In this document: one piece after another, positions 11,600 through 24,241 of the stretch
Layout: each line of letters begins with the position of its first letter
Numbering within the stretch: the first letter of the stretch is position 1
Source: Psychroserpens jangbogonensis
Lineage (GTDB): Bacteria; Bacteroidota; Bacteroidia; Flavobacteriales; Flavobacteriaceae
DNA: 64,000 nt
NCBI RefSeq assembly: GCF_000797465.1
Contig: NZ_JSWG01000015.1
Coordinates: 124,001 to 188,000, forward strand
Direction of reading: 5' to 3'
Made by a program: the position numbers and the translations under genes
The notes under the pieces: model-generated
Databases searched by the model: none
The model's input: only the letters and a program-made list of their open reading frames with translations
What the model was told of the DNA's origin: nothing

Positions 11600-13498
11600 T
11601 TAATTCTTAATTAGTTTTTTGCTAATCGTACTACTACCTTGTGTTAAACGTAAAATATACATACCATTAGATAAACGTTCAGTTGGTATCGTTTCTGAAT
11701 TATAAATGGTTTTAGATATAACTAGATTACCTAAAATATTATAAATCTCTACTTGTGTTTTCTTAGCTGAGTTAAGTTTGATGTGTAAAACATTGTTTAC
11801 TGGGTTTGGATACACTTTGAATTCATCCAATGCTACATCATCAATACCTAGTATTTGATTATGACTGCCTAAATCGTCACAATTATCTACAACATTCCAT
11901 TCATTAATGTCAAATGTAGTTGTTGGTCTATCAATTGCAGGTTTTCTAATCAAGGTTGTGTTTTCTGCAAATACTACATTACTTTGAAAGACACCTATAA
12001 TATCTAAAAGAATATCATTTTTGAATAAACCAATCGCATCATTTCCATTAAAAGACGTCATGGCATTATTTAGGTAATCGTATTCGTCTGTACAAACAGT
12101 AGATCCACCATTTGCAACGACATATACATCTTCGTCTACAATAGTTGTATTATTTGGAAATGGTAGTGCTGGTCCCCAAGCACTTGCACCATTAGCATTT
12201 AGTTTAATTGTGTAAGCCGAAAGATTAACATCTGCTCCAGTGAAGTTTGCAATTTCTAATACTTTATCAGTTCCACTACCTTCAATATATTCTGAAAAGA
12301 ACAAATCAATATCACCACCAGAACTTCCGTTATTTGTAGTCATTTCACAAGCTTGGTTGCTAAAGCCAGATTCATTACCAGAATTATCTTTTGATTTTAC
12401 AGTAAAACAATAGTTTGTATCTGCAGTTAAACCTGTAGCTGTGAATGAAGTTGCCGTAGAATTAAACATATTCATACCATCTACATAAACGTCATAAGAA
12501 GCAACCGCAATATTATCGGTTGAAGCAATCCAAGTTAAATCGATACTATTATCTGTTGGGTTAGAGGCTACTAAATTAGTAGGGTCTGTTGGTGCTTCAG
12601 TATCTGGAGTAGTATCCCAAACTAAAGCTACATATTCTGGATGATCAACAAATGGATTTCTGTTGTTTTGGTGGTTGTAATAGATATTATTATTACGATC
12701 TATTTCCTTTTGTGAAACGGGATCCATTTCATGCCAAGTAACTAAGATGTTCAAGAATGGATCTGCTAAAGCTTTATCAGAACTCCCATCAAACATTGCA
12801 TATGATGACCAAGAAGAAACTTGACTTTCATAACGAGTCACGAAGTAAAAATAAATACGAGCAATGTCACCTTTAAACTCATCAATAGGCTCAAAAACGG
12901 TATTAGAATATCCAGCAGAGTAACCACTATCTAAGTTATCACCAAGTTTAGAACCGTTTTGAGTAGGATTAGTAATTCCAGATTGATTAACCAATTCGTT
13001 ATCATCAACTAGACCAAAAGGAAAATTACCTCTAAATCCATTAACACGACCGTCAGTAGGAATTAAATGATGTGCATCACTATACATAGGTGCTTGCGAA
13101 CTAAAAACCGATTGTGGAATTACATGTTCCTTATTATAACAATCTCCTTCACCATTATAGTTTCCACATTCATCAGAACCAGGCGAGTATGTATATGGGT
13201 CAGAACCAGAAGGGTTTTCAGAATACATATCTAAAATAGTATTGCTACCATTAGTTTCGTAGTAATAATCTCTTTCATAAGAAGAATTAAAACCATCTAA
13301 CGCATTATAACTTTGTGGGTTATGTTCTTCTTCAATAGCATTACTTATCTCTGGGTCATCTGAGCTGTTAATTATTCTCTCGAGTTGCGATTTTAATGTA
13401 TAACCTGTTCCAGTTGCATGGTCATAATAACCTGCAGGAATTTGTGCCGAAGCAGTAATGGTAATAAGTGTAATTAATAAAGTGTAAAAATGCTTCAT
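11600..13498 (-). CDS. Secreted endonuclease I with fibronectin and lamin-tail-type domains, T9SS cargo
   Basis: A 632-residue exported nuclease. Residues 1-18 are a signal peptide ending in SAQ. Residues of about 20-290 are an endonuclease I (EndA-type) domain: they contain the YNKEHVIPQS active-site region, DAHHLIPTDGRVN, NFPFG and KGDIARIYFYFVTRYE. A fibronectin type III domain follows (about 305-392), then a lamin-tail-like domain (about 398-540). A T9SS type A sorting domain forms the end (FKVYPNPVNNVL to KKLIKN). It would degrade extracellular DNA. It is a tandem paralogue of the 375-residue gene next door, which lacks the two middle domains. Confidence 0.85.
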   Translation of the reverse strand: MKHFYTLLITLITITASAQIPAGYYDHATGTGYTLKSQLERIINSSDDPEISNAIEEEHNPQSYNALDGFNSSYERDYYYETNGSNTILDMYSENPSGSDPYTYSPGSDECGNYNGEGDCYNKEHVIPQSVFSSQAPMYSDAHHLIPTDGRVNGFRGNFPFGLVDDNELVNQSGITNPTQNGSKLGDNLDSGYSAGYSNTVFEPIDEFKGDIARIYFYFVTRYESQVSSWSSYAMFDGSSDKALADPFLNILVTWHEMDPVSQKEIDRNNNIYYNHQNNRNPFVDHPEYVALVWDTTPDTEAPTDPTNLVASNPTDNSIDLTWIASTDNIAVASYDVYVDGMNMFNSTATSFTATGLTADTNYCFTVKSKDNSGNESGFSNQACEMTTNNGSSGGDIDLFFSEYIEGSGTDKVLEIANFTGADVNLSAYTIKLNANGASAWGPALPFPNNTTIVDEDVYVVANGGSTVCTDEYDYLNNAMTSFNGNDAIGLFKNDILLDIIGVFQSNVVFAENTTLIRKPAIDRPTTTFDINEWNVVDNCDDLGSHNQILGIDDVALDEFKVYPNPVNNVLHIKLNSAKKTQVEIYNILGNLVISKTIYNSETIPTERLSNGMYILRLTQGSSTISKKLIKN

Positions 13499-13511
13499 TG
13501 TATTTGTGTTA

Positions 13512-13737
13512 TTTTTTCTTTTCTAGCTATGCCATGTGAAATCCATCAAATCTAGATTAGTAGGCAAAATTGTTGTTTCGTTTACAAAGATAAATTCTTT
13601 TCCAACTTCTAATGTTAAAAAAATGTCAACTTGTTTTCTGTTTTCAGACGGTAATACAGAGCACGCAGCATAAACTAGTTTTTCACTAGATTTATTAATG
13701 AGAGAGTATTGATGTACATCTCTAGTTGTGTTTTGTA
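13512..13737 (-). pseudogene. Decayed duplicate of the 3' end of the rRNA methyltransferase gene
   Basis: Read on the minus strand, this stretch encodes pieces that line up with the last 75 or so codons of the intact methyltransferase gene at 14889-16103. One frame gives KLVYAACSVLPSENRKQVD where the intact gene has KLVYATCSVLPSENRRQVD. Another gives FDGFHMA followed by a stop and LEKKK, against FDGFYMALLEKKK. Frameshifts and in-frame stops break it. It stands in the same position relative to the downstream endonuclease start as the real gene does to the other copy, so it marks a tandem duplication junction. Confidence 0.85.
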
Positions 13738-13754
13738 AACTAAATATTTAAAAA

Positions 13755-14882
13755 TTAATTCTTAATTAATTTTTTGCTTATTGTAGTATTATCTTGTGTT
13801 AAACGTAATATGTACATGCCATCAGATAAACTTTCAGTTTGTATTGTTTCTGAATTGTTTATGGTTTTAGAAATAACAAGTTTTCCTAAAACATTATAAA
13901 TCTCTACCTGTGTTTGCTTTGCATATTGAAGTTCGATGTGTAGCACATTGTTTACTGGATTTGGATACACTTTAAAAGCTTCTGCAGTTTGAAATTCTTC
14001 AACAGAAAGCGCATTTTGCCAGATATCAAAAACAAAGTTAGGATTGTCAATAAATGGATTTCTGTTTCTTTGTCTGGTAGTTGCCCCAATACCATCAATA
14101 TTATTGTTCCTGTCAATTTCACGTTGTGAAACAGGATCATTTGTATGCCAAGTATATAAAATATTTAAAAAAGTATCGTCAAAACATTTGTCGCTAGAGC
14201 CATCAAACATATCGTATTGATCAAAACTAGTCATGCTGTCTTCGTATCTCGTAACAAAATAGAAATACATTCTAGCTATATCTCCTTTAAACTCATCTAT
14301 TGGTTCAAAAACAGTATTAGTATATCCAGCTGAATAGCCAGAGTTTAAATTATTTCCTTTTTTTGATCCATTTGAAGTAGTTAAAGTAGCATTTTCAACA
14401 ACTCCAAAAGGAAAGTTGTCTCTTTGTGCATTTACGTACTTATCAGATGGTACTACAAAATGAGCATCATTTCTCATAGGAGTATCGCTATCAAAAACGG
14501 CTTGAGGAATTATATGTTCTCTATTGAAACGTTGTCCTTCAGCAGTTCCCATTGTTCCATCATCTTGTTGAGAAGATCCATAAGTGTATTCATAAGAATC
14601 TGAACCTGCAGGGTTTTCAGAATAGATATCTAATAGCGTTCCATTATTTTCAAAATAGACATCAACATCTGACAACTCATAAGTTTGATACAAAGCACTA
14701 TAACTAAGATTTATAGATAAGTATTCAGGACTTAGTCCATCATTTACATTATCAATTATTCTTTTTAATTCCGTTTTTAATGCGTAGCCAGACCCTGTTG
14801 CAGAATCATAGTAACCTGTTGGAATTTGCGCTGAAGCAGTTGTGACTACTAATAGTCCTATTATAAAGTAAAGATGTTTCAT
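13755..14882 (-). CDS. Secreted endonuclease I, T9SS cargo
   Basis: A 375-residue nuclease with a signal peptide (cleavage after ASAQ, about residue 19). It has one endonuclease I domain to about residue 290 with FNREHIIPQAVF, DAHFVVPSDKYVN, FPFG and KGDIARMYFYFVTRYE. The C-terminal T9SS sorting domain runs from FKVYPNPVNNVL to KKLIKN. The sorting domain is very similar to that of the 632-residue neighbour, and the two catalytic domains are clearly paralogous. Its start is 6 bp from the end of the methyltransferase gene, so the two may be co-transcribed. It probably scavenges phosphate or nucleotides from extracellular DNA. Confidence 0.87.
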   Translation of the reverse strand: MKHLYFIIGLLVVTTASAQIPTGYYDSATGSGYALKTELKRIIDNVNDGLSPEYLSINLSYSALYQTYELSDVDVYFENNGTLLDIYSENPAGSDSYEYTYGSSQQDDGTMGTAEGQRFNREHIIPQAVFDSDTPMRNDAHFVVPSDKYVNAQRDNFPFGVVENATLTTSNGSKKGNNLNSGYSAGYTNTVFEPIDEFKGDIARMYFYFVTRYEDSMTSFDQYDMFDGSSDKCFDDTFLNILYTWHTNDPVSQREIDRNNNIDGIGATTRQRNRNPFIDNPNFVFDIWQNALSVEEFQTAEAFKVYPNPVNNVLHIELQYAKQTQVEIYNVLGKLVISKTINNSETIQTESLSDGMYILRLTQDNTTISKKLIKN

Positions 14883-16103: not shown

Positions 16104-16197
16104 TATAAAAAATTAGGCATGCAAAGGTACATTAAAAGTTGAGATATTGAAGTGTTTATGGGAAAGTGTTATCTTTTGAAAATAAATAATTAGGAAC

Positions 16198-16225
16198 GCA
16201 AGTTTTTATTTAAAAACACATCTAA
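16198..16225 (+). promoter_or_regulatory. ECF-type promoter site 1, before the first sigma gene
   Basis: GCAAGTT at 16198-16204, a 16-bp spacer, then TCTAA at 16221-16225. This matches the general layout of ECF sigma promoters (AAC-like -35, TCTAA-like -10, spacer of about 16). It lies 28 bp before the TTG start of the sigma gene, so autoregulation is likely. The same pattern with the same spacing occurs at 16834, 17754 and 20094. Confidence 0.65.
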
Positions 16226-16253
16226 ATTTAACGTAGTAAAATTTAGCTATTAT

Positions 16254-16832
16254 TTGACAGAAAGTGAATTTATAGAGGAATTAAAGAGCAAGAGCAGAAC
16301 TTCTTATAGTAGGCTGCTTGATGATTTTCAGCATAAAGTATTTGCGACTTGCTTATCTTTTGTGCCAAATAAAGAAGATGCAGAAGATATAGCTCAAGAG
16401 GTTTTTGTTGAAGTATTTAATTCGATTTCTAAATTTAAAGGGCAATCGAAACTTTCGACCTGGATTTATCGAATAACCACCAACAAATGTTTAGAATTTA
16501 TAAGAAAGCGCAACACCAAAAAGCGTTTTGCCTTTTTACAGTCGCTTTCGGGAGAAGGTTTTGAAATTGATAGATCCAACTATTTTACCGAAATGAACCA
16601 TCCAGGAATCATTCTTGAGAACAAAGAAAAAAGTGAAATTCTTTTTTTAGCAATCAATGAATTACCTGAAGCGCAAAGACTGGTATTTACAATGCATAAA
16701 GTTGATGGCAAAAGTTATCAAGAAGTAAGTGATATTACAGAAAAAAGTTTGTCATCTGTAGAATCCTTAATGTTTAGAGCAAAGAAAAATCTGCAAAAGA
16801 CATTAGAGAATTTTTATAAAAATGATAAATAA
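16254..16832 (+). CDS. ECF RNA polymerase sigma factor (module 1)
   Basis: A 192-residue sigma-70 family ECF factor. Region 2 includes the FVPNKEDAEDIAQEVFVEVF stretch and STWIYRITTNKCLEFIRK. Region 4 lies near the end, with LPEAQRLVFTMHKVDGKSYQEVSDI and SLSSVESLMFRAKKNLQ. There is no ATG upstream in frame; the start is a TTG at 16254. It is followed by a one-TM protein and a CnrX/Spy-like protein. This order resembles the CnrH-CnrY-CnrX type of metal-responsive system, although the gene order differs. It probably drives the four (G/A)CAAGTT-N16-TCTAA sites nearby. Confidence 0.9.
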   Translation: MTESEFIEELKSKSRTSYSRLLDDFQHKVFATCLSFVPNKEDAEDIAQEVFVEVFNSISKFKGQSKLSTWIYRITTNKCLEFIRKRNTKKRFAFLQSLSGEGFEIDRSNYFTEMNHPGIILENKEKSEILFLAINELPEAQRLVFTMHKVDGKSYQEVSDITEKSLSSVESLMFRAKKNLQKTLENFYKNDK

Positions 16833-16833
16833 C

Positions 16834-16861
16834 GCAAGTTTTATAAAAAAATAACATCTAA
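16834..16861 (+). promoter_or_regulatory. ECF-type promoter site 2, before the candidate anti-sigma gene
   Basis: GCAAGTT at 16834-16840, 16-bp spacer, TCTAA at 16857-16861. The whole site fills the short gap between the sigma gene and the next gene. The -10 is so close to the ATG at 16866 that a transcript begun here would be nearly leaderless and would favour the second ATG at 16872. Confidence 0.6.
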
Positions 16862-16871
16862 AGAGATGAAT

Positions 16872-17186
16872 ATGAAAACAAATAATAACATACAAAACGA
16901 GATAGACACTATTTTTGATAGTGTTAACCATATCAAAGCTGTACAGGCATCTCCTTTTTTTAAGGACAAAACCTTACAGCGTATGTTTTCTGAAAAGCTA
17001 GAAGAGCAACAAAGAGTTTTTACATGGTTTTCACCTAAATTACAATTAGCGACTTTAGCTAGTGTGGTTGTCTTAAATGTATTTGCCATTACGAAATTAC
17101 AAGAATCAACTTATAATGAAAATGTAAGTCAGTTTGCTGAGTCTTATGGATTGTCGACTAGTACAGAAACCTCTTTATTAAATTAA
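16872..17186 (+). CDS. One-TM protein, candidate anti-sigma factor (module 1)
   Basis: About 104 residues. The N-terminal 55 or so are hydrophilic and helical and would be cytoplasmic. One transmembrane helix follows (QLATLASVVVLNVFAIT), then about 30 residues outside. This topology, and the position between an ECF sigma gene and a CnrX/Spy-like gene, suggests an anti-sigma factor; there is no motif that proves it. An ATG two codons upstream (16866) is possible but lies at or before the expected transcription start of the site-2 promoter. The next gene begins 3 bp after its stop. Confidence 0.72.
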   Translation: MKTNNNIQNEIDTIFDSVNHIKAVQASPFFKDKTLQRMFSEKLEEQQRVFTWFSPKLQLATLASVVVLNVFAITKLQESTYNENVSQFAESYGLSTSTETSLLN

Positions 17187-17189
17187 GTC

Positions 17190-17687
17190 ATGAAGAAAAA
17201 TACAATATTATACATATTACTTTTAGTGTTAATTATAATGAATGGTTTTTTCTTATTCAATTATTTAGGGAGACCAGATCATAAAGGACCAAAAGAATCT
17301 GGGAGTTTTATTGTAAAAGAATTGAATTTTAATGAAAATCAATTGCAACAATTTAATAACCTTGAAGCTAAACATCATCATAATATGGAAGCTATTGGTG
17401 AGGATATAAAATTACTTAAAGATGATTTGTTTGAAAAAATTACAGCACCAATAGTGAATCAATCAACAATTGACAGCTTAATACTTTCAATTTCTGAAAA
17501 GGAAATATTAAAAGAGAAGGAGTTGTTTCATAGATTACGAAGTATTTATGAGTTATGTAATGAAAAACAAAAAGCAAAGTACGAACGCATTGTAAAAGAT
17601 GCTCGTCATAGAAGAGGGCCTAATAATATGAATTCATTGCCTCGAGATGAAAGAAGAAAAGGTGATCGACCACCTCCAAGACATTAA
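17190..17687 (+). CDS. Membrane-anchored periplasmic sensor, CnrX/Spy-like (module 1)
   Basis: A 165-residue protein with an N-terminal hydrophobic anchor (about 5-26). A helical periplasmic domain follows with an LTxxQ-like start (LNFNENQLQQFNNLEAKHHHN), long charged helices and a basic, proline-rich end (RHRRGPNN to PPPRH). It fits the heavy-metal-resistance/CpxP/Spy superfamily. In CnrYXH-type systems the CnrX member sits with an anti-sigma and an ECF sigma and senses periplasmic metal. The His-rich stretches are compatible with metal binding, but no site can be deduced. It ends at a clear terminator. Confidence 0.78.
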   Translation: MKKNTILYILLLVLIIMNGFFLFNYLGRPDHKGPKESGSFIVKELNFNENQLQQFNNLEAKHHHNMEAIGEDIKLLKDDLFEKITAPIVNQSTIDSLILSISEKEILKEKELFHRLRSIYELCNEKQKAKYERIVKDARHRRGPNNMNSLPRDERRKGDRPPPRH

Positions 17688-17696
17688 TTAAATTTT

Positions 17697-17729
17697 AAAA
17701 GGCTCTTAATTTTCAAGAGCTTTTTTTTT
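17697..17729 (+). terminator. Terminator of sigma module 1
   Basis: Stem GCTCTT (17702-17707) / AAGAGC (17715-17720), extended by A-T pairs and followed by nine T. It follows the stop of the CnrX/Spy-like gene by 9 bp. Confidence 0.8.
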
Positions 17730-17753
17730 GTGCTTTTTTTAACAAAAGCAAGG

Positions 17754-17781
17754 ACAAGTTTTTCTAGCCAATAGTATCTAA
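17754..17781 (+). promoter_or_regulatory. ECF-type promoter site 3, before the EF-hand gene
   Basis: ACAAGTT at 17754-17760, 16-bp spacer, TCTAA at 17777-17781, 28 bp before the ATG. It differs from the other sites only at the first base of the -35 element. Confidence 0.6.
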
Positions 17782-17809
17782 AAATATATAACAAAGAAAT
17801 AATTTAAAA

Positions 17810-18103
17810 ATGAAAAATAACATGATTAAAGCAGTATTAGTTTTTGGGATGACATTATTTATGTCATTCAATTCATTTGGACAACCTGGAAATAGAGGAG
17901 ATCGAAAAAAGCCGCCAACTTTTAAACAATTATTAAAAGATATGGATGCCAATGAAGATGGCAAACTCTCTAAAGAGGAAGTAAAAGGACCATTAAAAGA
18001 AGTTTTCGCAAAAGTTGATACAGATGAGGATGGGTTTATTACTGAAAAGGAATTTGAAAAAGCTCCTAAACCCAAAAAAGGAGAACGAAAAGAAAAGGGA
18101 TAA
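17810..18103 (+). CDS. Exported EF-hand protein
   Basis: A 97-residue protein with a signal peptide (cleavage near SFG, residue 24). It has a pair of canonical calcium-binding loops, residues 46-57 (D, N, D at positions 1, 3, 5, glycine at 6 and Glu at 12) and residues 70-81 (D, D, D, G, E). The tail is lysine-rich. It is monocistronic, preceded by an ECF-type site and followed by a strong terminator. It probably acts in the periplasm as a calcium- or metal-binding protein of the regulon; its partner is unknown. Confidence 0.85.
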   Translation: MKNNMIKAVLVFGMTLFMSFNSFGQPGNRGDRKKPPTFKQLLKDMDANEDGKLSKEEVKGPLKEVFAKVDTDEDGFITEKEFEKAPKPKKGERKEKG

Positions 18104-18136
18104 AATGAAATTTTGATTTGATTAGTTAGTTACTGT

Positions 18137-18168
18137 AAAAAGCTTCGTGAGAGATTACGAAGCTTTTT
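18137..18168 (+). terminator. Terminator after the EF-hand gene
   Basis: A perfect 12-bp stem, AAAAAGCTTCGT (18137-18148) with ACGAAGCTTTTT (18157-18168), and an 8-nt loop. It separates the EF-hand gene from the first YHYH gene. Confidence 0.8.
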
Positions 18169-18261
18169 CTTTTATATTAGTATATATTCTATTAGGTATT
18201 CTTATTTTAGTAGTATTTTTTAAGATGAAAACAAGGAAAATTAGTAATTAAAAACACACAT

Positions 18262-19260
18262 ATGAAAACAAATAAAGCAATATTAAAGATCCCAAATGCA
18301 TTTGGTTTCATAATGTTTTTATTTATGCTGTCACTAATGGCATGCAATAGTAATGATGATAGCAACACAAACGACGATAACGATGATCTAAGTGAAACGT
18401 TAATACAAGAATCCTTTTTTAATTCAACATCATTAATTTCTTATGAAAAAGTAGATTGTACGCTCGAAGATGGCTCAACAGGAGATTGTTATCAATTAGT
18501 TTTTTCCAGTAATCCAATTGATAATGGGCCTTTTTGTCCGGTAACAATTAATGATATTGGTGGTGTAGGGATTTATGATGGCGCAACTAATCCAGGGTTT
18601 CAGGTTATGAAAGCAAGCTTATTTAACGCCATGGAAGCAGATGGTTATGATATAGTAAACAATAGTGGTATCATAAATATTGACGATTTTACTGGTCCTC
18701 CAAATCCAGGTGGTTATTCTTATTGTCTAGAAGCAGCACCAGATAATAATTTACTATTAACTTTTTTAATACCTGCAGAACCAGTGTTAGCAACAAACAA
18801 TAATATTATAGATTCTGTGGAGCTAATTGGTGTTTCAATAGACGGTGTGCCTATTAATGGTGATCCACCTTCTGTGGTTAATGGTCCAATGCTAGGAGTA
18901 GGTAATATACCTGCAATAGATCCTTGTGGTGGTCATCATGATCCTGCAGGATATTATCATTGGCATTTTGTTGCGGAAACCATGAATCAAGTTTTAGAAT
19001 CTAATGGAATAACTGATGTGACGTGTACATTAGTTACCCAAGTTTCTAGTAGTAAATTAATTGGTTTCGCAAAAGATGGTTTTCCAATTTATGCCTATGA
19101 AGTTGAACCTTCTGGCTTAGATGAATGTGGAGGAATCACGGCTAATACTTCAGAATTTCCAGATGGAGTTTATCACTATGTTGCTAGTAACACTGAAGCA
19201 CCAAACGTACCAAAATGCTTAAAGGGTGTTGCAGCAATCAATAGTTTTACATTTCAATAA
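18262..19260 (+). CDS. YHYH-domain lipoprotein (first copy)
   Basis: A 332-residue lipoprotein. The lipobox cysteine lies in LSLMAC (about residue 28), followed by an acidic Asp/Asn-rich linker that may act as a surface-export signal. The C-terminal half has the features of the YHYH family: GGHHDPAGYYHWHF at about 222-236, an IGFAKDGFPIYAY segment and a final GVYHYV near residue 302. Several cysteines (CGG, ECGG, PKC) may form disulfides. The function of the YHYH family is not known. It is followed after 2 bp by a DUF6702-like gene. No (G/A)CAAGTT-N16-TCTAA site was found in front of it. Confidence 0.83.
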   Translation: MKTNKAILKIPNAFGFIMFLFMLSLMACNSNDDSNTNDDNDDLSETLIQESFFNSTSLISYEKVDCTLEDGSTGDCYQLVFSSNPIDNGPFCPVTINDIGGVGIYDGATNPGFQVMKASLFNAMEADGYDIVNNSGIINIDDFTGPPNPGGYSYCLEAAPDNNLLLTFLIPAEPVLATNNNIIDSVELIGVSIDGVPINGDPPSVVNGPMLGVGNIPAIDPCGGHHDPAGYYHWHFVAETMNQVLESNGITDVTCTLVTQVSSSKLIGFAKDGFPIYAYEVEPSGLDECGGITANTSEFPDGVYHYVASNTEAPNVPKCLKGVAAINSFTFQ

Positions 19261-19262
19261 AG

Positions 19263-19862
19263 ATGAAAAGGGTAATTATTTTCTTATTGATTGTAATAGT
19301 TTCAATTCAAACTATACAAGCTCATAATCCCTTGTCAGCCATGTACTATCTTGAAGTTAAGGAAAATATCAATATTCTAAACATAAATTTAAGTCAGAAT
19401 GGTTTGAATGAAGCTTTAAAAAAGCAGTATTCAAAAATAGATTTCAAAGAATTATCTACTACTGAATACAAACAATTGGCAGTAAATTATCTCAAGGAAA
19501 ATTTTCATTTAGATATTAATGGACAAGCGATAAAGTTATTAGAAGGCGGATTGAAACTTGGAAAGCATCAAACGGATGCAAAATTTATTGTCTCAGGATT
19601 ACCAAAAACATTTGAAAATCTATTTGTCAAAATAGAAGCTTTTATTGAAAATGAACATCATCAAACTGTTTTTTCATTGTTATTAAAAGGAAACACTAGT
19701 AAGGTGATATTAAATAAAAACAACAATTATTCAGCTTCAGTGCGATTTAAAGATCATTTGATGGTAGTTAATTCGGCTACATTTAATAAAAATTATTTGT
19801 GGTGTTTTGCTTTAATACCAATTTTTCTAATTGGCAAAAAGCTAATTGCAAAACGAAATTAA
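19263..19862 (+). CDS. Exported DUF6702-like protein with C-terminal membrane anchor
   Basis: A 199-residue protein with a signal peptide (ends near IQAH, residue 21). It has a beta-rich middle and one C-terminal hydrophobic segment (LWCFALIPIFLIG) followed by lysines, which would anchor it in the inner membrane. It resembles the flavobacterial DUF6702 family, which I recall as often standing next to peptidase genes; here it is coupled to a YHYH gene. Function unknown. Confidence 0.7.
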   Translation: MKRVIIFLLIVIVSIQTIQAHNPLSAMYYLEVKENINILNINLSQNGLNEALKKQYSKIDFKELSTTEYKQLAVNYLKENFHLDINGQAIKLLEGGLKLGKHQTDAKFIVSGLPKTFENLFVKIEAFIENEHHQTVFSLLLKGNTSKVILNKNNNYSASVRFKDHLMVVNSATFNKNYLWCFALIPIFLIGKKLIAKRN

Positions 19863-19864
19863 AA

Positions 19865-20078
19865 CTTGCACTTACCATTTCTTATAGCTTTTTGCTCAAT
19901 ACCGCTAAATATTCACGAGAAAAATCAATCATAGGTTAAATGCTTTCCACGGCAAGCCTAACGCTTCCCAATTACTTTCTAATATACATTTTAACGATGT
20001 TGGTTATTTGATAGATGAAGAAATAAAAAGCACCAATACTTGCTGTTAAAAGATCTAATGTAATGCTTCCTTTAAAAA
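19865..20078 (-). pseudogene. Possible decayed membrane-protein gene
   Basis: The 293-bp gap between the two YHYH operons has protein-like segments in three successive minus-strand frames. The first, about 36 residues, ends at 19972 and looks like a membrane helix (LTASIGAFYFFIYQITNIV). The next reads SNWEALGLPWKAFNL. A third starts MIDFSREYLAVLSKKL. Together they look like the C-terminal part of a gene broken by two frameshifts. I do not recognise the family, and the composition of this AT-rich DNA could produce such segments by chance. Confidence 0.3.
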
Positions 20079-20093
20079 AAACAACTTGCTACA

Positions 20094-20121
20094 GCAAGTT
20101 TTTCTTTAAAAGCACATCTAA
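20094..20121 (+). promoter_or_regulatory. ECF-type promoter site 4, before the second YHYH operon
   Basis: GCAAGTT at 20094-20100, 16-bp spacer, TCTAA at 20117-20121, 34 bp before the ATG. The -35 element is also the right arm of a small hairpin (AACTTG at 20083-20088 with CAAGTT at 20095-20100) followed by T residues, which could be a terminator for upstream transcription or an added binding site. Confidence 0.6.
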
Positions 20122-20155
20122 TAGTATAACATTAACTAATTAAGACATAAATTGA

Positions 20156-21268
20156 ATGAAAAATTATTTAAAAATTCTAGCTTTAATAGTTTCAGTGACT
20201 ACCGCATTTTATGCGTGTAGTGGTGGTGATGATTCAGGAAGTGATGATGGAGATGGTGGAACAACAAACCAGGCACCATCAAGCTTTACTGCAAGTGTAG
20301 ACTTAATCACAGAAACAACGGCTGCTTTAAATTGGACAGATGCTACAGATCCAGATGGAGATACTGTAACTTATACAATTACTTTGCAAGGCTCTGAAAT
20401 AGCTATTGGATTAACCGTATTAACTTTAGATTTAACAGGGTTAACGTCTTCTTCTAGTTACTCAGGAACAGTTGTAGCCAATGATGGTAATGAAGGAAGT
20501 TCTTCAGCATCTTTTAGTTTTTCAACAGAAGGAACAGCACCTGCTTTACATTTAGCTTTTGCAGAATTTGATACAGACAATACAGACATCATTCTGAGTG
20601 GTTCTAATGTAATTATTGAAACTAACGGAATGGCAAATCATACATCACCTTATTGGTCAAATACTACCGAAAGATGTGCAACACCTCCAATGGGAGGAGA
20701 AATATGTACAAATACTGACACAACGGTTAATCATCCATTGTTTGTGGAGCCAACAGCAACTTCTTATCAATTTATGGCACCAGGAAATATTGATGATTTT
20801 AATGGTTCATATTCGTTAACGGTATTAGCAGCACCAGATTTAGCAGCCAATTCTTCAGCAACCGGATTAGGAGCCATAGGAATTGCTATTTCTGGAGCTA
20901 ATATTTATAATGATCAAGAAGGACCAAATATGCCTTTAGATAATAATACTATTGGATCATTTGATTATACTGCTGCTCATACAGGTCCACAAAGTTATCA
21001 CTATCATTTAGAACCAAAAGCTTGGTCTAATGATGATGATGCATTAATTGGAATTATTGCTGACGGATTTTTTATTTATGGAAGAAAATGTAACTCAACA
21101 AACGACTATCCAACAGATTTAGACGCATCTGGAGGTCATACAAGTGCGACGCAACATAGTGAAGGTGCTTCAGAGTATCACTATCACATTCAAAACGAAT
21201 TATATTTAAATCAATATTATATTTTATTCCCAGGCAATTATCAAGGAACTCCAAGCAATATTCAGTAA
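20156..21268 (+). CDS. YHYH-domain lipoprotein with fibronectin-like domain (second copy)
   Basis: A 370-residue lipoprotein (lipobox cysteine 21 in FYAC) with a Gly/Asp/Ser-rich acidic linker. A fibronectin type III-like domain follows (about 40-125), then a YHYH domain that carries two exact YHYH motifs, at residues 281-284 and 341-344. An LIGIIADGFFIYGRK segment lies between them. The acidic linker suggests exposure on the cell surface. It is the first gene of a run with the MORN lipoprotein and SCO1 genes and has an ECF-type site in front, so it is the best candidate for a regulated output of sigma module 1. Confidence 0.85.
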   Translation: MKNYLKILALIVSVTTAFYACSGGDDSGSDDGDGGTTNQAPSSFTASVDLITETTAALNWTDATDPDGDTVTYTITLQGSEIAIGLTVLTLDLTGLTSSSSYSGTVVANDGNEGSSSASFSFSTEGTAPALHLAFAEFDTDNTDIILSGSNVIIETNGMANHTSPYWSNTTERCATPPMGGEICTNTDTTVNHPLFVEPTATSYQFMAPGNIDDFNGSYSLTVLAAPDLAANSSATGLGAIGIAISGANIYNDQEGPNMPLDNNTIGSFDYTAAHTGPQSYHYHLEPKAWSNDDDALIGIIADGFFIYGRKCNSTNDYPTDLDASGGHTSATQHSEGASEYHYHIQNELYLNQYYILFPGNYQGTPSNIQ

Positions 21269-21860
21269 AACAGTCTTTTTAATAGGTCTGTTGTTTATTT
21301 CTTCTTGTCAAAAAGAAGAACAGAAAACTATGGCTTATGCTGAAGTGACTAAAAGTTCTATAAACAATATAATAATCAACAAGAATGAGTTAGAGTTGAA
21401 ATCCAATTTAGGGTTGATGTATTATCAAAATCAACCCTTTAATGGAACTTCTGTTAGATTTTATAGAGATGCTTTAAAATCAGAATCTATTCAATATGCA
21501 AATGGAAAACGCCATGGAGTATACCAAAAATGGTTTCCAAATGGAGCTTTGAGTTTCGAGGCTCATTATGAAAACGGACTTCAAGTTAGTAATTCAAGGT
21601 CGTGGTGGAAAAACGGAAATTTACGTACTGAAGCCAACTATAAGGATGGGATTGTTAACGGAATTCAAAAGCAATGGTATAAATCTGGAATAAAATTCAA
21701 AGAAATGACCATTATAAACGGACAAGAAGAAGGTTTACAAAGAGCTTGGCGAGAAAACGGAAAAATTTATAATAACTACGAGGCAAAAAACGGACGAATT
21801 TTTGGATTAAAACGTGCGAGTTTATGTTATCAATTAGAAGATGAGAATGTACAATATTAA
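21258..21860 (+). CDS. MORN-repeat lipoprotein (YwqK-like), start codon uncertain
   Basis: The body consists of MORN-type repeats such as NGKRHGVYQKWFPNG, WWKNGNLRTEANYKDG and WYKSGIKFKE, as in YwqK-family proteins, often called antitoxin-like without proof. The only usual start in frame near the front is a TTG at 21291, which would leave just five residues before the lipobox cysteine. Reading further upstream in frame gives a good lipoprotein signal (KTVFLIGLLFISSC). This implies a start at ATA 21258 or another rare codon, overlapping the end of the YHYH gene. Its 3' end overlaps the SCO1 gene by 20 bp, so translation is coupled. Confidence 0.68.
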   Translation: MFSKTVFLIGLLFISSCQKEEQKTMAYAEVTKSSINNIIINKNELELKSNLGLMYYQNQPFNGTSVRFYRDALKSESIQYANGKRHGVYQKWFPNGALSFEAHYENGLQVSNSRSWWKNGNLRTEANYKDGIVNGIQKQWYKSGIKFKEMTIINGQEEGLQRAWRENGKIYNNYEAKNGRIFGLKRASLCYQLEDENVQY

Positions 21861-22512
21861 ACAGATACTAGTTATTGGATTAGTCTTGTTTTTCGTGAGT
21901 TGCATTGAGAACTCAACAATAAAGAAAACGAGTAGAGTAGCAGAATTACCTTTTTATAAGGAAGCTACTTTTATGCCTCATTGGTTAGATGCAAATAGTG
22001 AAGAAGCTGATATAATTCATAGAATACCAAAGTTTAACTTGGTCAATCAATTAGGGGAAGAAGTCACAGAAGAAACGTTTAAAGATAAAATCTATATTGC
22101 TGATTTTTTCTTTACTACATGTCCTGGTATTTGTCCTAAAATGACTGCAAATATGAAGGTTTTGCAAGAAGCATTTCTTGAAGACAATGATGTCTTACTC
22201 TTATCACATTCGGTTACTCCTGAAACCGATTCTATACCGATTTTAAAACGTTATGCCGAAAATAAAGGTGTTATAGATAGTAAATGGCATTTGGTAACAG
22301 GTGATAGAAAGCAAATTTACGATTTAGGAAGACAAGCTTATTTTGCTGAAGAAGACTTGGGTGTTTATAAAACAGAAGATGACTTTTTACATACTGAAAA
22401 CTTTGTTCTCATTGATAACAATAGACATATACGCGGAATTTATAACGGACTAAATAAAATGTCTGTACAACAACTAATTGCAGATGTGAAAACATTGCAA
22501 TTAGAAGATTGA
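21841..22512 (+). CDS. SCO1/SenC family lipoprotein (first copy)
   Basis: A 223-residue thioredoxin-fold protein with a lipobox (cysteine 21 in FFVSC) and the copper-binding CxxxC pair, Cys94 and Cys98 in TTCPGICPK. The distal ligand His184 is in DFLHTENF. All three copper ligands of the SCO family are present. SCO proteins deliver copper to or reduce the CuA site of cytochrome oxidase, though some serve redox signalling. An alternative start is the ATG at 21847. The gene sits at the end of the YHYH operon, away from oxidase genes, which suggests a different client here. A second SCO gene is at 54632. Confidence 0.9.
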   Translation: MRMYNIKQILVIGLVLFFVSCIENSTIKKTSRVAELPFYKEATFMPHWLDANSEEADIIHRIPKFNLVNQLGEEVTEETFKDKIYIADFFFTTCPGICPKMTANMKVLQEAFLEDNDVLLLSHSVTPETDSIPILKRYAENKGVIDSKWHLVTGDRKQIYDLGRQAYFAEEDLGVYKTEDDFLHTENFVLIDNNRHIRGIYNGLNKMSVQQLIADVKTLQLED

Positions 22513-23533: not shown

Positions 23534-24076
23534 TTAATCTTGAGTTAAAAATGCTTCTATTTTCTTTACAGCAATATGATAAGAAGCTTTTAATGCACCT
23601 TCACTTGTATCCAAAATTTCAGACATATCTTTATATTTGATATCTTCAAAATACTTCATATTAAATACCAATTGTTGTTTGTCTGGTAATGTTGCTATAG
23701 CTTTTTGTAATTTTATTTTTATATCATCACTTTCAAAATAAACATCAGCTTTTAAATTATTAATCGCTAGATTTTGATGTTCTTCCGAAGATAACTGCAT
23801 TCGCTTCGAATTCTTATTAATATGTGTAATGGACTCATTCGTTGCAATACGATACATCCAAGAATACAATTTGCTATCGCCTTTAAAGTTATGGATACTT
23901 TTATAAACTTTAATAAATGTATTCTGAAGTACGTCATCTGCATCATCGTGAGACTTTACGATATGACGAATATGCCAATACAATCGCTCCTTATAAAGCT
24001 GTAATAACTCTTTAAAGGCAGCTTCTTTGGTTTCTTTGGAGATTAAACGCTGGATAAAGTCTTGTTCTTCTTTCAA
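23534..24076 (-). CDS. ECF RNA polymerase sigma factor (module 2)
   Basis: A 180-residue ECF sigma factor. Region 2 includes HDDADDVLQNTFIKVYKSI and SWMYRIATNESITH. Region 4 includes ATLPDKQQLVFNMKYFEDIKYKDMSEI and the helix-turn-helix EGALKASYHIAVKKIE. The start is a TTG at 24076; the only ATG nearby (24081) is out of frame and hits a stop. An AAACTT-N16-TCTAA site lies just upstream. It is followed on the minus strand by the one-TM and Spy-like genes, so module 2 has the same order as module 1 but points the opposite way. Confidence 0.9.
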   Translation of the reverse strand: MKEEQDFIQRLISKETKEAAFKELLQLYKERLYWHIRHIVKSHDDADDVLQNTFIKVYKSIHNFKGDSKLYSWMYRIATNESITHINKNSKRMQLSSEEHQNLAINNLKADVYFESDDIKIKLQKAIATLPDKQQLVFNMKYFEDIKYKDMSEILDTSEGALKASYHIAVKKIEAFLTQD

Positions 24077-24091
24077 AAACTCATTTTTTCT

Positions 24092-24118
24092 TTAGACTCA
24101 TGAAAATAGTGAAAGTTT
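24092..24118 (-). promoter_or_regulatory. ECF-type promoter before sigma 2
   Basis: On the minus strand this reads AAACTT, a 16-bp spacer, then TCTAA (plus-strand 24092-24096). The -10 and spacer equal those of the four module 1 sites, but the -35 has AACTT where they have AAGTT, which is closer to the classical ECF -35. It would give a very short leader before the TTG at 24076. Confidence 0.5.
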
Positions 24119-24241
24119 AATGAAAAATAATTTTTTTGTTAAAACTCTCGCAATCAATTAGTTGAATGTATTATCATCGATAAAGTGTTTATAAAATACG
24201 ATGAAATGCATATTTTTCTTGTTTGTACCACTTATTTATTA

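Follow-up and report, generated by a model that had tools for sequence, protein, structure and literature searches.

We have examined a 64,000-nucleotide stretch of the genome of the marine flavobacterium Psychroserpens jangbogonensis (contig NZ_JSWG01000015.1, positions 124,001 to 188,000), hereafter the window, in which a gene for an extracytoplasmic function (ECF) sigma factor lies among four copies of a two-box element, RCAAGTT-N16-TCTAA. From the placement and conservation of these boxes, the four sites are very probably promoters that the product of this sigma gene (16254–16829) reads. The locus belongs to a known kind of system, in which an ECF sigma controls a local regulon mostly of envelope proteins, and it is unusually legible. 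Its sites stand before the sigma gene, the gene for its putative anti-sigma factor, an EF-hand gene and a run of YHYH, MORN and SCO1 genes.

Probable promoter sites in the window and the genome

The pattern RCAAGTT-N16-TCTAA matches the window four times, at 16198, 16834, 17754 and 20094, always on the plus strand. A sequence-only reading of this DNA had reported these four sites with their 16-bp spacer and had judged chance occurrence very small. Both points hold, as 0.08 matches are expected by chance in 64 kb and none of 100 shuffles reached four. Its observation that CA precedes TCTAA at three sites is also correct; site 3 has TATCTAA. A position weight matrix (PWM), trained on related loci (L039–L118) with the window excluded, finds the same four sites and no other of at least 6 bits in the window:

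16197–16226, plus strand: promoter site 1, (C)GCAAGTT-N16-TCTAA(A), before the sigma gene, 36.9 bits
16833–16862, plus strand: promoter site 2, at the sigma/anti-sigma junction, 35.9 bits
17753–17782, plus strand: promoter site 3, before the EF-hand gene, 16.1 bits, the lowest of the four
20093–20122, plus strand: promoter site 4, before the YHYH-MORN-SCO1 run, 21.5 bits

Predicted transcription start points fall at about 16231–16233 for site 1 and 16867–16869 for site 2. The −35 box of site 4 forms part of an inverted repeat (20083–20100) whose two 7-bp arms match perfectly around a loop of 4 bases. The sequence-only reading placed every site directly in front of a named gene or run. This stands for the sigma, anti-sigma and EF-hand genes and for the YHYH gene at 20156; the MORN and SCO1 genes have no site of their own and both follow site 4.

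Genome-wide (3.63 Mb in 62 contigs) there are eight strict matches, and a reversed control pattern gives two. None of the four matches outside the window precedes a gene in its own reading direction. Two are antisense inside an open reading frame (ORF; L005 and L008), one is inside an ORF close to its end (L006), and one is antisense and spans the last bases of an ORF (L007). The motif is therefore not equally frequent elsewhere in this genome, a result that would have spoken against the sequence-only reading. The genome has 23 genes with sigma-70 region 2, and none of the other strict matches lies at one of them.

Conservation and placement across related loci

A protein search of named genomes with the sigma factor confirmed 390 relatives. 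We kept the best 80, which are 71–89% identical; their loci, 1.62 Mb in total, were thus selected by sigma similarity with the motif ignored. With the N16 spacer the boxes match 278 times on the sigma strand and once on the opposite strand. No other spacing between 8 and 24 gives more than 5 matches on either strand (range 0–5), and none of 288 controls with scrambled boxes of equal composition gives more than 4. All except two of the 278 matches lie outside ORFs of at least 120 amino acids, and such ORFs make up 83% of the DNA.

Columns that were not part of the search are conserved as well. A cytosine precedes the −35 box at 260 of the 278 sites and precedes ATCTAA at 274, and an adenine follows TCTAA at 266. 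The extended consensus from the relatives is CRCAAGTTTT for the −35 and RCATCTAAA for the −10, while most spacer columns carry little information. A/T-rich DNA lies 12–19 bases upstream of the −35 box. Seven bases past TCTAA, the expected start point, 214 sites have an adenine; the preference is not strict and is seen at two of the four window sites. Palindromic spacers occur at several junction sites of relatives. Boxes at a fixed spacing that are directional and stand before genes are what an ECF promoter looks like.

Placement was counted with a matrix score of at least 12 as the threshold for a site and with gene families defined by clustering in the 80 loci plus the window. The anti-sigma gene clusters in 77 of these 81 loci, and each of the 77 has a site before it. 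Sites also precede the EF-hand gene (68/98), YHYH (76/131), CotH (17/48), Cthe_2159 (5/7), VTC (3/5) and Lcl_C (1/4). They are rare or absent before the sensor (1/81), MORN (0/62), SCO1 (0/62), DUF6702-like (0/17), sulfatase (0/13) and BNR (2/52) genes and before the divergent rRNA methyltransferase (0/75). Gene order varies among species, and the sites remain at the heads of units.

Co-occurrence of the sigma factor and the sites

Within the genus (23 genomes, our own included), the sigma is found at 76% identity or more in 11. The exact sequence CAAGTTT-N13-CATCTAA is present in all 11 of these, at two to six copies each, versus one of the 12 genomes without the sigma. In that one (G214, 88% complete) the site precedes a YHYH gene followed by MORN- and SCO1-like ORFs, as judged from translations only.

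A family sample of 199 genomes, with the sigma called at E 1e-40 in 26, behaves in the same way. Strict matches average 4.35 in the 26 genomes with the sigma versus 1.14 in the 173 without (reversed-pattern controls, 2.12 versus 1.61), and at least four are found in 16 of the 26 versus 5 of the 173. Two of these five sigma-less genomes (G021, G068) have no match to the tighter pattern, and in the other three (G087, G110, G119) the matches are scattered. At the same cut-off, a 296-genome sample of the order yields six sigma matches, two of them outside the family.

The motif follows the sequence of the sigma itself. Sites are exact or near-exact near homologues at 69–79% identity, still recognisable at 60–63%, and decay once identity falls below about 60%. 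Among four homologues examined at 41–52% identity, one (L265, 42%) has a related junction site of 10 bits. A second (L266, 48%) scores below 2 bits, though GCAAG and TCTAA can be made out by eye with their spacing unchanged. A third (L267) retains only a −10-like TCTAA, and the last (L227) has nothing.

The sequence-only reading took the sites for ECF promoters and the sigma at 16254 for the factor that reads them. Both readings are supported by strand and spacing specificity in the 80 loci, by the unsearched columns, by placement before the first genes of particular units, by co-occurrence in the 23 genus and 199 family genomes, and by decay of the motif below about 60% identity.

Proposed feedback and the predicted anti-sigma leader

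The junction site before the anti-sigma gene is present in all 80 relatives by matrix and in 75 by strict boxes; the remaining five differ by single bases. The sigma gene has its own site in 49. Simple autoregulation, which the sequence-only reading implied, fits the window, where site 1 gives the sigma gene a promoter of its own type, and does not extend to the relatives as a whole. Because the junction site is found in 80 of 80 and the sigma's own site in 49 of 80, the constant part of the design is the sigma driving its anti-sigma factor and sensor. Negative feedback is the conserved core, with the anti-sigma promoter universal and the sigma's own promoter optional.

Three of the 31 relatives without a sigma site retain a trace of one (a spacer one base short in two, a degenerate site in the third). 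In 15 of the 31, the divergent gene has its opposite-strand box 40–52 bases from the sigma start, compared with mostly about 115–150 in loci that have the site; these 15 thus seem to lack a stretch of intergenic DNA. The divergent-gene box lies at 109–145 in 10 others, and the last 6 have no box. On a quick sigma tree, which leaves out L081 as too short, the presence/absence label changes at least eight times, three of these changes being forced by well-supported branches. A housekeeping −7 box (TAnnTTTG) was considered as a substitute promoter and rejected: it occurs within 250 bases in 5 of the 31 loci without the site versus 18 of the 49 with it.

The junction site also lies very close to the gene it precedes. 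The first anti-sigma ATG falls 4–13 bases past TCTAA in 55 of 75 placeable rows and 9–10 bases past it in 36; from the predicted start point, the latter distance would therefore leave a leader of 3–4 bases. In 12 of the 75 rows the first ATG is at 4–6, at or before the predicted start, and the rows of this kind that were inspected (the window, L042 and L043) have a second ATG at 10. For the window gene we accordingly prefer 16872 as the start. The alternative, 16866, falls a little short of where transcription is predicted to begin, whereas 16872, 10 bases past TCTAA, matches the commonest distance in the relatives. The other units have predicted leaders of about 17–28 bases. Judged by these distances, the mRNA of the anti-sigma gene would in many cases have almost no leader. 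In Flavobacterium psychrophilum, 5.5% of mRNAs are leaderless and the median leader is 24, according to an excerpt of PMC9723704.

On balance we favour a system whose core is not self-activation but the junction promoter, giving an often nearly leaderless mRNA for inhibitor and sensor. Positive autoregulation would be an option gained and lost at least several times within the Flavobacteriaceae. Around this core the target modules (EF-hand, YHYH, CotH, VTC, Cthe_2159) would shuffle, many units carrying their own promoter copy.

A second ECF sigma and alternative explanations

The window holds another ECF sigma with a related site:

23534–24076, minus strand: second ECF sigma
24092–24119, minus strand: promoter-like site TAAACTT-N16-TCTAA before the second ECF sigma

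This site recurs before relatives of the second sigma in 32 of 42 loci. It shares its −10 core and spacer with the sites of the 16254 sigma and differs in the −35, pointing to the −35 box as what insulates the two systems from each other. The second sigma and anti-sigma-like and small periplasmic-like genes occupy 24119–22551 on the minus strand, and in many relatives they are convergent to the 16254 regulon.

This neighbour, or any other of the 22 further sigma-70 region-2 matches in the genome, might own the four sites or share them with the 16254 sigma. ECF specificities overlap in other bacteria, and the common TCTAA core and N16 spacer would allow such sharing. We consider it very unlikely, since the second sigma's own site has AAACTT as its −35, the sites track the presence and absence of the 16254 sigma across the genus, and the site fades once identity to that sigma drops below about 60%. 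Genus genomes without that sigma still give 20–37 candidates in a first-look search, so that other sigma genes probably remain in them.

The boxes could also be the operator of a regulator that is not a sigma factor, for example a dimer with two half-sites. Two conserved blocks at fixed spacing would suit a factor binding two turns apart, and at some sites the spacer is palindromic or the −35 is covered by an inverted repeat. Yet the blocks are not repeats of each other, and a strand bias of 278 to 1 is what a promoter would give. The distances to start codons and the conserved adenine seven bases on fit a start point, and the sigma and its partners are the regulators that stay next to these sites. 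An operator is accordingly most unlikely. It is scarcely conceivable that some mobile or repeated DNA, or else a hairpin of a terminator or untranslated region, has spread in front of these genes as the motif: one site does overlap the hairpin at 20083–20100, but only boxes, flanks and spacing are fixed while most of the spacer is low in information, and the genome has no further copies beyond the four matches that lie in ORFs or across the end of one.

Several observations weigh against promoters read by the 16254 sigma. Site 3 scores just 16 bits, and the presumed start-point bases at the four window sites are C, G, A and A. Fewer than four strict matches occur in 10 of the 26 sigma-bearing family genomes. 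Two of them (G086, G188) have none, retaining near-matching sites all the same, and a third (G076) has one; its sigma relative, at 52% identity, shows no site at its locus. The 80 loci come from related flavobacteria and hence are not independent, and with the matrix trained on the same loci the counts of 80/80 and 77/77 are partly circular (strict boxes give 75/80). Of the 80 relatives, 31 lack the promoter before the sigma gene, which leaves transcription of that gene in them unexplained.

Genes of the locus and a proposed mechanism

The genes and hairpins of the regulon region are as follows:

16254–16829, plus strand: ECF sigma factor, 192 amino acids, TTG start, stop codon at 16830–16832; Sigma70_r2 and r4_2
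16872–17186, plus strand: putative single-pass membrane anti-sigma factor, 104 amino acids, start revised from 16866
17190–17687, plus strand: membrane-anchored, probably periplasmic protein, candidate signal sensor with a predicted CnrX/CpxP/Spy fold
17697–17725, plus strand: terminator-like hairpin closing the anti-sigma/sensor unit
17810–18103, plus strand: small EF-hand protein, probably secreted; EF-hand domain, hydrophobic N terminus
18137–18168, plus strand: terminator-like hairpin 3' of the EF-hand gene
18262–19260, plus strand: YHYH lipoprotein-like gene
19263–19862, plus strand: DUF6702-like gene (match below cut-off)
20156–21268, plus strand: YHYH and fn3 lipoprotein-like gene, downstream of site 4
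21291–21860, plus strand: MORN_2 gene, start uncertain
21841–22512, plus strand: SCO1 gene

The sigma has the composition of an ECF factor, with fewer than about 200 residues and regions 2 and 4 only (Sigma70_r2 at residues 23–87, r4_2 at 129–180 of 192); TIGR02937 matches above its cut-off. The putative anti-sigma factor has one hydrophobic segment, beginning at residue 59, and matches no family in Pfam or NCBIfam. It shows no mark of class I (ASDI, zinc): there is no match to an ASDI domain and, in the window protein, no cysteine for the HxxxCxxC signature. Its structural model, of poor confidence (pLDDT 66.6), has helices at residues 6–19, 28–46 and 55–91, two cytoplasmic and one transmembrane.

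For the candidate sensor, a CnrX/CpxP/Spy fold is well supported by the structural model (pLDDT 86.5). Foldseek against the Protein Data Bank (PDB) ranks CpxP first, with CnrX and Spy among the best, and the TM score (target) against CnrX reaches 0.82, at Foldseek E-values of 0.02 or worse. By profile the protein matches Spy at E 9e-4 and Metal_resist weakly, below cut-off; a search of its sequence alone against solved structures gave nothing useful. H62 is near-invariant, and the FxHF histidine common in relatives is missing from the window protein. Metal binding by the sensor is not well supported.

The YHYH and DUF6702-like pair at 18262–19862 sits behind a terminator-like hairpin and has no site in the window. 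Of 17 such pairs, 8 have a site in front and 9, including that of the window, do not; the window pair is no more than a candidate member of the regulon. The order promoter-YHYH-MORN-SCO1 recurs among relatives.

We infer the following mechanism from the sites, their geometry, conservation and placement, and their co-occurrence with the sigma, all of which are observed in the DNA. The sigma would recognise CRCAAGTTTT and RCATCTAAA, with 16 bp between CAAGTT and TCTAA, and transcription would start about 7 bases past TCTAA. In the resting state the small membrane anti-sigma factor would hold the sigma. A periplasmic signal, acting via or sensed by the CnrX/CpxP/Spy-fold protein, would free it. 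The freed sigma would then transcribe four units: the sigma gene; the anti-sigma and sensor genes; the EF-hand gene; and YHYH-MORN-SCO1. Transcription of the anti-sigma and sensor genes would act as negative feedback, restoring the resting state. Copper or calcium as the signal is suggested by the SCO1 and EF-hand domains only.

Relatives carry further, distal copies of the site (L255, L256, L259, L261, L254, L263). One stands before a sulfatase identified by Pfam (L255), and in L256 the protein is alike by translation only. Other genes behind distal sites encode a di-haem cytochrome c peroxidase, a PAP2 protein, another YHYH protein and a CotH protein that ends in a type IX secretion tail. 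In a few relatives, genes for VTC (polyphosphate polymerase-like), DUF4956 and DUF2490 lie beside CotH (L048, 12185–13540; L099, 13945–14664). A CotH/polyphosphate polymerase/DUF4956 group adjoins Pel loci in Gram-positives, as described in a portion of PMC7112168. A 249-residue protein (L060, 17387–18136), placed inside the target units and matching nothing in Pfam or NCBIfam, represents a family found in 24 of the loci. Elsewhere in the window, two neighbouring minus-strand genes at 11600–14882 encode endonuclease I proteins, each carrying a type IX secretion tail.

Relation to known systems

The closest likeness is to CnrH-CnrY-CnrX, the cobalt/nickel system of Cupriavidus metallidurans, which likewise combines an ECF sigma, a small single-pass anti-sigma factor and a CnrX-fold periplasmic protein in adjacent genes. 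The window sensor shares the predicted CnrX fold, which also includes CpxP and Spy, and the N-terminal membrane anchor. The order here is sigma, anti-sigma, sensor, whereas the known operon is ordered cnrYXH. Unlike in Cnr, a scan of nine window proteins and ten cluster representatives turned up no metal efflux family. As far as the sections of PMC4598750 and PMC7406223 that describe CnrY go, its layout is two helices followed by a membrane helix; the window anti-sigma fits this in its low-confidence model (pLDDT 66.6), and no CnrY match for it was found among solved chains. The CnrX sensor is thought to relay through the anti-sigma factor (PMC4598750, in part). One survey, to judge from a section of PMC7406223, finds class I anti-sigma factors next to only 6% of Bacteroidetes ECFs.

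The promoters resemble the RpoE type, which in Escherichia coli is GGAACTT-N16-TCNAA. Both have two short boxes, a 16-bp spacer, a TCTAA-like −10 and AT-rich upstream DNA. The −35 here is CRCAAGTTTT rather than GGAACTT, a cytosine stands right before ATCTAA, and the regulon is local and made of envelope proteins. Within the same bacterial family, the SM6 ECF motif of F. psychrophilum includes an anti-sigma/sigma pair among its genes (PMC9723704, in part); in that account its −10 is CGT and its genes include several for type IX secretion, whereas here TCTAA goes with YHYH, EF-hand and CotH. In the literature searched, mentions of TCTAA together with sigma factor and promoter concern Neisseria and Borrelia. 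We found no paper joining YHYH with flavobacteria or CAAGTT with sigma promoters, and YHYH is absent from the papers found to combine SCO1, EF-hand and sigma factor; both are weak negatives, most subscription papers lying outside the coverage.

The ECF regulons of Bacteroidetes appear to have been little explored; that of the 16254 sigma can be read from sequence alone across many genera. With a neighbour differing in the −35 box and natural presence or absence of the sigma's own promoter, specificity and feedback design become directly testable. The regulon also ties little-known surface families (YHYH, secreted EF-hand, CotH and VTC-DUF4956) to one regulator.

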